DNA of 26,082 bases from a virus. Made by a program: the position numbers and the translations under genes. The notes under the pieces were generated by a model. It did no database searches. It was not told the origin of the DNA and was given only the letters and a program-made list of their open reading frames with translations. The stretch is from IMG/VR virus record IMGVR_UViG_3300036944_000511, positions 1-26,082 of that record; one strand, written 5' to 3'. Shown piece by piece: positions 19,719-22,938 of this stretch (positions within the stretch are counted from its first letter, which is position 1; each line of letters starts with the position of its first letter).

Positions 19719-19931
19719 TCAAAGGATGCCTGACGATTCGCCTGTGATTGGCTTGCGGTCGCGCTGCTGTCTCGTCAGGTGCCATTGACCACAGTGAGGA
19801 CATTCATACGGGTAGAGCGTCGCACTCTCTTTAGCCGCTGAGATCATGCCAACAATGCGCGCCCGGTTCTCCGTCTTATACCGCGACTTCTTGCGGCAGT
19901 TGCGGCGGGACAGCGCCTCACCAGCCAGCAT
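19719..19931 (-). CDS. Small zinc-finger-like protein after terminase
   Basis: The start at ATG 19931 (MLAGEALSRRN) overlaps the terminase stop by 14 bases. The longer frame to 20045 runs antiparallel to good terminase sequence in another frame and is rejected. The 70 residues have a basic N-terminal half (RRNCRKKSRYKTENRAR), then YECPHCGQWHLT, a CxxC...H element that may be half a zinc site, and a basic tail. Comparable short CPxCGxWHLT proteins occur in many phages without known function. Proximity suggests a packaging or head role. Confidence 0.6.
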   Translation of the reverse strand: MLAGEALSRRNCRKKSRYKTENRARIVGMISAAKESATLYPYECPHCGQWHLTRQQRDRKPITGESSGIL

Positions 19932-21288
19932 AGTTACCGACTTCAAGTTCGCCGTTGCCGTCCATCGTGACGGGCGGCTCATACGCGACAGCCCCAAGCC
20001 CCTTGGCGTCAGCGCCGTGAGAGGCATCATCGTGGTTAGGTCCAAGGCCGATATTGGCCTTGTCGTCCCATTTCTCGTGATAGGCGCGTAGGCGCTTCAG
20101 GCCTGCTGCCGTGCCTTCCTTGTCGAAGCGCATACGGGGGAACAGGCGGCGCAAGGCCTCAATGCGCATATTGGCAGCGCCCGCGCCCTGATTAGGGACC
20201 ACCTTGACGCGGAACCCTGCCTCTTTCAGCGCACCCTCTGGTGTGACCTTGTGAACCGTGTCGTGCTTGCGTCCATCGTGCGGAAGGATGCAGATGGCGT
20301 CGCCATATCCGTTCTTGCGCAGCCAAGCGACGTGCGCATCCATAGGCTGACCTACAGCCTCATAGTATTTCAGGACGCGGATTTCCTCACCCACCCACTG
20401 TTCAATCCAGATTGCGCAGGCGTCGGCCTTGTTGCCCGTGCCGCCCAAGTCCCAAATGGCCCGGTATTCCATCAAAGGGTCTGGCGCGACATAGCCGATG
20501 CGCTCGTCTAGTTCGGCTTGACGAATCTGCTTGGTGAAGTAAGCACCCCTGTAAATGGTCTTAAAGGCCCCTTCCCAAATGTGCTCGTAGTTGTCCGGGT
20601 CGTTCTCTTGCGCGCGAAGTCGGTCCCGATCCATCTTGGATGTGAACCAAGGATTTTGGGGCCAATTGATTTCTGCCCCCTTGATTAGGGGGTCAGACCC
20701 TGACTCCCATATTTTGCGGATGTTTTTATGAACCCAACTGTTTTCAGTTTCTGGGTTATAGATAAGCCAAAGCTCAGACCCTTCCTCACGGATCGTCGGA
20801 ATCAGCTTCTCCCATGCATCTCCTTGGATGTACTCAGCCTCTTCCGCGAAGCATCGTAGGATTCGTGACTTAGATTTGATGCTGGATAGGTTGACGGACG
20901 TTCCGCTGAAAATGAACTTGATGCGGCCCGAGCGAGTGCGGATGTATTTCTCGCCAACGTCATAGACGGAAGAAAGCCATGGATCAGACTGGATCGAGTT
21001 CTTTAGGTCTTGCAGGCTGGAGTCGTCCAGGCTGTTCATGAACTCTCGAATGCACAAGATTACGCCAGCCACCCCCATGGCATCGAAGATAGCCCCCTGC
21101 GTAGCGAGCATCTTCGTGAAAGCCCAACTTTTTCCCCCGCCGCGCCCTCCTACGCTGAACCGAATATCGGCCTTGCCCTCAAATACAGGGATCAGCACTG
21201 GAGGAATATCGCTTGCGGTAAGGGGGCAGAACCCTCGCTTGTAAAGCTCAATCTTTGCCGCTGTGATTTCGGCTTGTGTTATTTGCAT
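19918..21288 (-). CDS. Terminase large subunit (Terminase_3-like ATPase/nuclease)
   Basis: A Walker A motif lies at residues 47-55 (GGRGGGKSW) and a Walker B-like segment at about 141-152 (RCFAEEAEYI, acidic pair EE). The C-terminal RNase H-like nuclease includes IWDLGGTGNKADACAIW (catalytic Asp), LPHDGRKHD and the DDASHGADA acidic cluster. It pumps DNA into proheads and cuts concatemers. At 456 residues it is complete. Its start is unusual: ATG 21288 lies inside the last codons of an HNH gene, and a diverged copy of its first 20 residues lies on the far side of that gene. The first 600 or so bases look more A+T-rich than the rest. No small terminase is recognised in the window. Confidence 0.92.
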   Translation of the reverse strand: MQITQAEITAAKIELYKRGFCPLTASDIPPVLIPVFEGKADIRFSVGGRGGGKSWAFTKMLATQGAIFDAMGVAGVILCIREFMNSLDDSSLQDLKNSIQSDPWLSSVYDVGEKYIRTRSGRIKFIFSGTSVNLSSIKSKSRILRCFAEEAEYIQGDAWEKLIPTIREEGSELWLIYNPETENSWVHKNIRKIWESGSDPLIKGAEINWPQNPWFTSKMDRDRLRAQENDPDNYEHIWEGAFKTIYRGAYFTKQIRQAELDERIGYVAPDPLMEYRAIWDLGGTGNKADACAIWIEQWVGEEIRVLKYYEAVGQPMDAHVAWLRKNGYGDAICILPHDGRKHDTVHKVTPEGALKEAGFRVKVVPNQGAGAANMRIEALRRLFPRMRFDKEGTAAGLKRLRAYHEKWDDKANIGLGPNHDDASHGADAKGLGAVAYEPPVTMDGNGELEVGNYAGW

Positions 21289-21953
21289 TGGCGAAGGTCA
21301 ATTTTGGAATTGACGGCAACTTCAATGGGGTAGCCAATTTTTAGTCTGTAAGAAATTGTTCCAACACCAACTCCACACAACCGTGATAGCTGCATCATGG
21401 TCATTTCCATCCCACGATATTCCACAATCCGGTTACTGCGTTTGTTGTTCGCTTGCGTATTTGCATCTGTCCATCGACAATTTCCAGGCTCATAGTCCCC
21501 ATTCGTGTCAATGCGATCAATAGTTAGGCCCGGGAGACGGTCGCCCATATCTTCATAGAACGCGGAAAAATCGTCCCATCTTTCGCACACACGAATTCCG
21601 CGACCACCATAGTCCTTGTAATCGCTATCATTAGGATTGTTGCACCTTGCTCGCATGTCCTTCCATGAGCGATAAGCCTTGGAATGCGCTCTAGAAAGTC
21701 CGTGCGTTGTGTTTCGCGCAACCAAAGTTTCACGCGCTAGGCAGCCGCAACTCTGTGTATGCCCCTGCGTTAAGAGCCAAGCGTTAGCGACTTTTTCTTT
21801 TCCGCAATCACATACGGCAAGCCAACGGTGGCGACGGGCAGGAGAGTGATCTCGCTCAGACAACCCAATCACAGTAAGGCGACCGAACCTCTGTCCTGTT
21901 CGATCAAGGAGAGGCCTGAGTCTCCGTCCATCTGCGCCTTTGTGTTCTTTCAT
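21279..21953 (-). CDS. HNH endonuclease (AP2/HNH homing type) inserted at the terminase 5' end
   Basis: The 224-residue protein has an N-terminal GQRFGRLTVIG element (20-30) and a zinc-like C-D-C-G/SCGCL section (48-72). The HNH region is standard for this type: YRSWKDMRARCNNPND, YKDYGGRGIRVCERW, then TIDRIDTNGDYEPGNCRW (144-161), with a following Q-N-N. A C-terminal DNA-reading helix-turn-helix (LSRLCGVGVGTISYRL) completes the architecture of free-standing homing endonucleases. HNH genes often sit beside phage terminases and sometimes help packaging, but here the flanking terminase relic argues for homing. It is A+T-richer than its neighbours. It ends ten bases inside the terminase gene, and no strong ribosome site precedes it. 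Confidence 0.88.
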   Translation of the reverse strand: MKEHKGADGRRLRPLLDRTGQRFGRLTVIGLSERDHSPARRHRWLAVCDCGKEKVANAWLLTQGHTQSCGCLARETLVARNTTHGLSRAHSKAYRSWKDMRARCNNPNDSDYKDYGGRGIRVCERWDDFSAFYEDMGDRLPGLTIDRIDTNGDYEPGNCRWTDANTQANNKRSNRIVEYRGMEMTMMQLSRLCGVGVGTISYRLKIGYPIEVAVNSKIDLRQCK

Positions 21954-21990
21954 GAGAACAATTTAACACAGAGGGCTGCCGTATGAAAGC

Positions 21991-22059
21991 CTAAAGGCCG
22001 CGACGGTGTAGCTCTAGTTTCGCGCTGACAACATCGGCCTGCGTAATGGTTGTCGTCAC
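21991..22059 (-). pseudogene. Relic of a second terminase N-terminus
   Basis: GTG 22059 opens a 22-codon frame whose residues TTITQADVVSAKLELHRRG align without gaps to the first residues of the terminase 0.7 kb away (MQITQAEITAAKIELYKRG). It then hits a TAG where the terminase continues with CPLT. Identity is high in protein but only about half of the bases agree, so this is an ancient homologue, not a recent duplication. GGAT lies just before the GTG, and the frame begins shortly after the stop of the upstream gene, as a native operon gene would. It is best read as the original terminase start, cut off by the HNH insertion. Confidence 0.75.
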
Positions 22060-22068
22060 ACGGCCATC

Positions 22069-22527
22069 CTACACCGCGCTATTCTGTAGCGCGATTACCG
22101 AGACGCGAACGCCTGATGCGGACCCCGAGAACGGATTGACTGTTTGCGATCCGACCGCGACGCTAATGCCGACAACCGAGACAGCAGCGAGCGTCGTAGG
22201 AGCACCCCTATAACCCCTGACGATGCAGCCGGTGTAGTCAGGCCCGGTCATAACCCAGCTATCCACTTGGAGCGCGACAGGTTGCGTCCCGCCTGGTGCG
22301 ATGGGCGTCAGGTCAACGCTTGGCTCGACGGGAAATGAGCGCGTGAATGTCGCGGTCGCCAAGCCCGATCCGTCCAAGGTCACTATGGTTGCAGACGTGA
22401 GGCGGGGGTGCTGGTGATCAGCGCGCGCGAAACGGTCGCTCGTGGCCCCGACAGATCCTGTGCGGCTCTCGCTCGACGGTGTGGCGTCCGCAGGCATGGG
22501 CGGCGGGACGCTTGTAGACTGCGCCAT
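22069..22527 (-). CDS. Putative virion decoration/fibre protein
   Basis: The 152-residue protein begins with a disordered Ser/Pro leader (STSVPPPMPADATPSSE). It then has the SDRFARADHQHPRL motif often seen in phage fibre or decoration proteins, followed by a beta-rich domain (GLATATFTRSFPVEPSVDLT through VSVVGISVAVGSQTV). It is coupled three bases after the upstream stop. It is a likely surface protein of the virion, but it lies upstream of terminase, away from the other tail genes. Confidence 0.6.
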   Translation of the reverse strand: MAQSTSVPPPMPADATPSSESRTGSVGATSDRFARADHQHPRLTSATIVTLDGSGLATATFTRSFPVEPSVDLTPIAPGGTQPVALQVDSWVMTGPDYTGCIVRGYRGAPTTLAAVSVVGISVAVGSQTVNPFSGSASGVRVSVIALQNSAV

Positions 22528-22530
22528 CGT

Positions 22531-22938
22531 CTAGAATGTCTCTAGGTAACTGACGATCTGAACACCGCCTGTGGCGATGCCCGCAATCTGCGCATTGGTT
22601 GGGATGGTGACGCTTGCACCGATCACGCCGGGCAGAAGCAGGCCATTCGCCGCCGTCACAGTTCCTGTGCCGATATAAACCGGATTCGTGCCGTGGTTTG
22701 TGATTGTGATCGCTCCACGGCTAGAGCGTGCGGCTGCGATCTGCGTTGAGGTAATGGCGACGCTGACCTGAGCCGTAGCAACGCTCGCAAAGCCATAGTC
22801 TCGCGTAGGGGCGGGATTGGTTGTAGACGCCGCCACTGTGCCATTAGCGCCAGTCGTTGCCACAGGAAACGGAGTCGCCGTACTGACAGAGGTCCGATTT
22901 CCGAACGCATCGCCGGTAAGGAATTGCATCAAGCCCAT
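22531..22938 (-). CDS. Putative virion beta-sandwich protein
   Basis: The 135-residue protein has a short N-terminal helix (MGLMQFLTGDAFGN), a Ser/Thr/Ala-rich linker and a beta-sandwich-like domain (GAITITNHGTNPVYIGTGTV, ASVTIPTNAQIAGIATGG). Domains with an ITNxGTNPVYIG-type strand occur in phage head decoration and fibre proteins. A promoter-like sequence and a terminator hairpin lie just upstream, so this may be the first gene of the structural transcript. Confidence 0.6.
   Translation of the reverse strand: MGLMQFLTGDAFGNRTSVSTATPFPVATTGANGTVAASTTNPAPTRDYGFASVATAQVSVAITSTQIAAARSSRGAITITNHGTNPVYIGTGTVTAANGLLLPGVIGASVTIPTNAQIAGIATGGVQIVSYLETF

Follow-up and report, generated by a model that had tools for sequence, protein, structure and literature searches.

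Homing normally leaves no scar, so the entry of nuclease genes into sites of low homology is hard to observe in nature. Free-standing homing nucleases and co-conversion are already known in phages (PMC2988022); SegG, MobE, and others of the T4-like phages are stand-alone nucleases beside an essential gene, with diverged flanks that are co-converted. One-sided homing events with illegitimate junctions were obtained in T4 experiments (reviewed in PMC2988022), as for the td intron (Parker, Belisle and Belfort 1999, via PMC2988022), where homology existed on one side, the other junction was illegitimate, and the repair route proposed was the one we propose below. At fungal mitochondrial 3′ ends, homing nucleases with a displaced gene end next to them have been described; in Allomyces atp6, Ophiostoma rps3, and Phlebia cox2, a foreign or alternative end is fused in frame and the native end lies beyond the nuclease gene (PMC4019555). 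HEG hot spots beside terL are also known, with nuclease genes upstream of terL at exchange boundaries (Barth et al. 2023, PMC10448857). In engineered home-and-rescue gene drives, a nuclease that cuts an essential gene is coupled to a functional, diverged copy of its target (PMC7968924).

We analyzed a window of 26,082 nucleotides (positions 1 to 26,082 of the IMG/VR virus record IMGVR_UViG_3300036944_000511), in which an HNH endonuclease gene lies between the large terminase gene (terL) and a displaced terL start. For the T4-like free-standing nucleases, two-sided repair has been reported (PMC2988022), whereas this locus has one non-homologous junction and a native gene end that is stranded but still readable. 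The td case is experimental and concerns an intron, whereas this one is natural and combines a free-standing HNH with a full replacement gene end. The fungal cases affect 3′ ends of organelle genes and involve other nuclease families (PMC4019555); those described here are in dsDNA phages and mostly at 5′ ends. Gene-end relics were not met in the passages of Barth et al. (PMC10448857) that were searched, and the families named there are AP2-type HNH and T5orf172, whose identity with the window HNH family is not established. The home-and-rescue drives are synthetic Cas9 constructs in flies and are alike in logic only (PMC7968924). A literature search of incomplete coverage did not find phage gene-end relics of this kind described.

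On the minus strand, the gene order is 135-aa gene, 152-aa gene, 22-codon stub, HNH, TerL, and SU10-type portal (Table 1). The first-pass annotation, made from the letters alone, had described an HNH gene beside the terminase start with a relic beyond it, and both are real. It had also placed the terminase ATG within the HNH 3′ end, where it lies 10 nt inside; the TerL start reads MQITQAEITAAKIELYKRGF. The HNH is a stand-alone ORF with its own start, and an Rfam scan of the window for introns gave no match. A promoter and terminator scan of the junction found none, and no HNH promoter is claimed. The illegitimate joint is probably at 21985–21995 or close by, within or beside the leader. Just upstream of the junction, the window and L002, a viral locus with a related HNH and TerL, share a weak resemblance (GGxCTTTxG), which could be microhomology and is too eroded to claim. 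The junction recurs with 100% identity in a longer contig (IMGVR 3300036546_000170), and the two assemblies are possibly not independent.

Table 1. Features around the HNH gene in the window.
Feature	Position	Strand	Evidence
TerL large terminase gene (Terminase_3), 456 aa	19918..21288	-	PF04466 2.4e-20, phrog_3717 5.4e-50
terL native remainder (probable)	19918..20553	-	L002 no closer than other relatives
terL foreign tract, codons 1 to ~245, which probably came with the HNH	20554..21288	-	L002 identity step, tree conflict
Free-standing HNH endonuclease gene, 224 aa	21279..21953	-	phrog_374 3.3e-70; 78% identity in L002
Leader, from junction to HNH ATG	21954..21990	-	L002 alignment; common to L002 (TCATxCGG..TGTGTTAAAT)
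Relic: displaced native terL 5′ end, 22 codons from GTG, and stop	21991..22059	-	Translation; motif match to L353/L354
152-aa gene directly upstream of relic; native neighbor of terL start	22069..22527	-	ORF call; distant relative in L111

The 135/152-aa gene pair (22069–22938, minus strand) resembles a pair that precedes a tail-spike-like gene in L111, and small proteins with a related motif lie between TerL and the portal in L002 and L354; given these differing places, the pair seems mobile. The window also has an HNH_3 gene unrelated to the first HNH gene, at 1192–1731 on the plus strand, opposite to most window genes; it encodes a C-terminal helix-turn-helix.

The stub reads VTTTITQADVVSAKLELHRRGL followed by a stop (GTG at 22059, TAG at 21993–21991) and starts 9 nt downstream of the 152-aa gene stop. 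Stub and TerL start had been called homologous in protein with about half of their bases agreeing, which a direct count bore out (10 of 17 residues identical and 28 of 51 bases); the resemblance exceeds chance, with a translated flank-versus-flank score of 59, while the 99th percentile for mismatched flanks among 176 related HNH genes was 50. A tblastn search of the 22-aa stub against phages, with a query too short for the purpose, returned no match, and the degenerate DNA pattern ITQA..AK.E matched the window's own virus only. A shorter DNA pattern, AKxEL(HYF)(KR)RG, identified L353 and L354, which lack the HNH and whose TerL starts (VNFTAADIVAAKIELHRRGLCP and VKLTLADIAAAKIELHRRGLCP) carry the motif AKxELHRRGL. 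TerL is complete in L354 and runs off the end of the available sequence in L353. The stub has AKLELHRRGL and resembles these starts, while the attached TerL copy of the window has YKRGF instead. As the motif opens TerL in HNH-less relatives, it is the native TerL start in this branch, and the stub is thus the beginning of a terminase rather than a separate leader gene.

The motif does not open terminases in general. Nearly all TerL relatives (80 viral contigs and 5 genomes) start at '..IELPPKLIPVF', around window residue 24, without the stub motif, and a terminase scan of GTDB genomes gave five distant loci, none of which had it. The L002 TerL has a stub-type motif, together with the same HNH and the same 10-nt overlap. 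The expectation that HNH-less relatives would have an uninterrupted TerL starting like the stub was borne out by L353 and L354, although neither of them is nearly identical to the window. The 22-codon frame was seen as a complete leader gene in no relative, and both copies were seen together at no HNH-less locus.

The native start stranded as a stub has a counterpart in L090, where a 50%-identical HNH precedes a distant TerL (31% identity to the window TerL). Upstream of this HNH, a relic reads MTELVIETARKLLPALEDARYIALHGG, then LRL and a stop, and the TerL of the HNH-less L273 and L274 starts with MTELVIETARKLLPALEDARYIALHGGRGGMKS. The relic and its upstream junction match L273/L274 at ~92% over 91 nt, up to CATGGTGGG, within the codons for Walker A. 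The TerL that L090 now has opens with LTELVIEVPRKLVPALEPARYIGLHGGRGGAKS; codons 1–195 are foreign (70% identity to L273/L274) and those from 196 to the end native (93%). The maximum chi2 for this break was 136, compared with a permutation maximum of 24–28, and the control pair L273–L274 showed nothing comparable. Judged by sequence comparison, L090 displays the history given by the first-pass annotation in a case where HNH-less relatives are available, and it is the best proof of it.

Mosaicism of TerL was also found in the window and L002. Their TerL proteins share 82% amino acid identity up to codon 245 and 56% beyond (0/500 permutations). Against 16 other TerL relatives, the window TerL has 45–52% identity in residues 28–235 and 45–64% in residues 240–440, so that the first half of the window–L002 comparison stands out and the second half does not. 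Between L002 and the HNH-less L354, a break in the opposite sense occurs at codon 230 (63% of bases, then 78%), and the neighboring genes of L002 match L354 as the C-terminal half does (77% for the 77-aa gene and 82% for the portal); the window portal had no match in the L002 phage. The separate trees of the TerL halves suggested by the first-pass annotation conflict, residues 28–230 joining the window with L002 and residues 250–440 joining L002 with L354, each with a support of 100. The half-TerL mosaic, the tree conflict, and the differing neighbors indicate that the HNH and the first half of TerL moved between different phages. Synonymous sites between the window and L002 are saturated, and as the searches yielded no HNH-less phage closely related to the window, the window crossover rests on amino acid identity to L002; at 22 codons, the window stub is also short.

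The sharp identity breaks at TerL codons 196 (L090), 230 (L002), and ~245 (window) point to co-conversion of flanking DNA. The proposal that foreign donor DNA arrived with the HNH agrees with the mosaic and the trees; 'N-terminus', the term used for it, is too narrow for a tract of ~245 codons. The accompanying idea that the reading frame was rebuilt is probably wrong because the HNH–TerL overlap appears to be the donor arrangement itself, which is also present in L002. The HNH is optional at terL, present in L002 and L090 and missing in L354 and L273/L274, and it is absent beside most TerL relatives, unlike a conserved partner such as a packaging HNH of the HK97 gp74 type. L002 has the HNH and no relic; thus, the scar is not obligatory.

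A flank comparison covering 176 HNH relatives shows the same scar at other genes, so it is not peculiar to the terminase. Among true pairs, 4 of 176 had a second copy starting ≤12 nt from the HNH stop; among mismatched pairs, 3 of 3000 did. In the L093 group, the relic MKTPCSYYG precedes the HNH, a Dam-type methylase starting MKTPCSYYGGKSR follows it, and the base differences of the relic are synonymous; in L094, the methylase relic has decayed to MKTCLSYYGDS. A search for an HNH-less empty site for the methylase case gave distant methylases only. L128 has the mirror form at the 3′ end of a gene, the intact gene ending with DKESYYRHIKLTSSGV, followed by the HNH and then the relic DKESFYRHIKLTSSGV. 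The flanks of L122, L187, and L218 also scored high, which we attribute to low-complexity or intein repeats.

Among isolate phages, a relic was found at two of 18 sampled loci (LucasX and Ab31). Xanthomonas phage LucasX has MIVYEGPGNLFECGVQTITCS upstream of the HNH and a macrodomain-like gene starting MIIYEGPGDLFSCGMQCITCSINTVG downstream; in its relative FLC9, the macrodomain-like gene follows the upstream gene directly, and the intervening HNH is absent. Acinetobacter phages Ab31 and AP22 have the 3′-end form of the scar at a head gene, which is mostly ~85–98% identical to that of HNH-less phages and ~62% identical in its last 160–200 bases. The relic behind their HNH matches the gene end of the HNH-less KEN_01 at 40 of 42 nt. 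Phage AB1 has a foreign-type head gene end with no annotated HNH adjoining. From the counts of relics at just two of 18 isolate loci and four of 176 contig loci, most insertions left none or lost it. The Ab31 head gene (L367 638–1410) is frameshifted relative to AP22 and its annotation is split, which may reflect an error in sequencing or a genuine break. In Rhizobium phage RHph_Y1_10 (L087 2436–3053), a GIY-YIG-like gene, of a different nuclease family, occupies the same slot at the TerL start; this phage was rejected as a relic case, as the gene overlaps terL and leaves no room for a relic.

The history that the first-pass annotation proposed for the locus is well supported. The relic, the foreign tract, the sharp return to native sequence, the HNH-less alleles, and the recurrence at both gene ends, all established by sequence comparison, are best explained by one-sided homing by the HNH, with one side repaired from the donor, the other joined illegitimately, and the native end stranded; we assign this reading a probability of about 85%. 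The HNH would be a free-standing homing endonuclease encoded just upstream of terL, presumably cutting the 5′ part of terL alleles that lack the HNH, and the cut recipient would be repaired asymmetrically during mixed infection. The broken end facing terL would pair with donor terL by homology, and the donor HNH and ~245 donor terL codons would be copied in before a crossover back to native terL. On the far side, where donor and recipient would lack homology, the recipient end, with 22 codons of the native terL start left on it after trimming, would be joined illegitimately to donor DNA upstream of the HNH, and the native gene end would thereby be stranded. The product would have the order relic, HNH, and chimeric terL. 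Its foreign terL start would keep the essential protein intact and presumably could not be recut owing to its diverged sequence. The 3′-end cases would follow the same scheme mirrored, with the HNH cutting at the other end of the gene. Tentatively, the HNH and a diverged, cleavage-resistant gene end might be stably mobile together and act as a natural home-and-rescue element. Such an element would destroy HNH-less alleles and supply a working replacement end, and this family would have done so at either end of genes for the terminase, methylase, macrodomain, and capsid assembly.

The HNH could instead have been a passive passenger when ordinary illegitimate recombination joined two phage genomes at the terL start, as phage genomes are mosaic and HNH genes are common near terL (PMC10448857). 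We consider this unlikely because the layout with an intact copy at the edge of the HNH gene is repeated at six unrelated loci and at both gene ends, each time with an HNH of this family, and because the relics end within the gene adjoining the HNH, as a targeted cut predicts. If the HNH served the terminase as a packaging cofactor, the role put forward for HK97 gp74 (discussed in PMC10448857), its position directly upstream of terL would be expected; however, close TerL relatives lack it and the same family occurs at methylase, macrodomain, and head genes, which makes this role very improbable.

Other readings concern the stub. With its start codon and possible ribosome site, it might be a small conserved leader gene that resembles a terminase start by chance. 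This has very little to recommend it, since the motif opens full-length TerL in L353/L354 with no separate leader, the L090 equivalent is the start of an intact TerL in L273/L274, and the L094 relic is in decay. Two homologous copies flanking the HNH in the same direction would also be produced by a tandem duplication of the terL 5′ end and insertion of the HNH between the copies. Duplicated copies should be mutual closest relatives, whereas in L090 the relic is closest to HNH-less relatives and the attached copy is of another lineage; together with the TerL tree conflict, this makes duplication highly implausible. HNH genes are often found in group I introns and related HNHs lie inside DNA polymerase ORFs, so the stub might be the first exon of a gene split by an intron or intein, but stub and TerL start are redundant and not complementary, no Rfam intron was matched in the window, and TerL is full length with its own start; a split gene is scarcely credible.

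Under one-sided homing, the relics are readable fossils of single events, recording the native break point, the amount of foreign DNA, and the recombining side. They would make the invasion of poorly matching genomes, a step long assumed, directly testable, and one-sided events would explain abrupt mosaicism within essential genes. Annotation of gene starts beside HNH genes needs care.

The window HNH matches the HNH endonuclease family phrog_374, and a Pfam search with it gave no hit. It comprises a zinc-finger-like N-terminus (CxC..CGC), the nuclease core, and a C-terminal helix-turn-helix-like region. In the AlphaFold model (pLDDT 91.5), the core consists of a strand (143–146), a strand (158–161), and a helix (163–168), with N157 and N169 conserved; a structure search with the model gave no PDB relative. 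The strand–strand–helix order is as expected, and the protein likely belongs to the HNH fold, yet R146, invariant in 41 of 41 aligned members, is at the position expected for the first catalytic His. The same HNH family is found inside the DNA polymerase ORFs of L363 (Caulobacter phage GB2A), with a Hint-type intein motif just ahead of the HNH, and L364 (Shewanella phage SFCi1). The TerL of L046, L048, and L049 contains an in-frame intein-like insert that ends with ..GIVNHNSGKSF at the Walker A motif.
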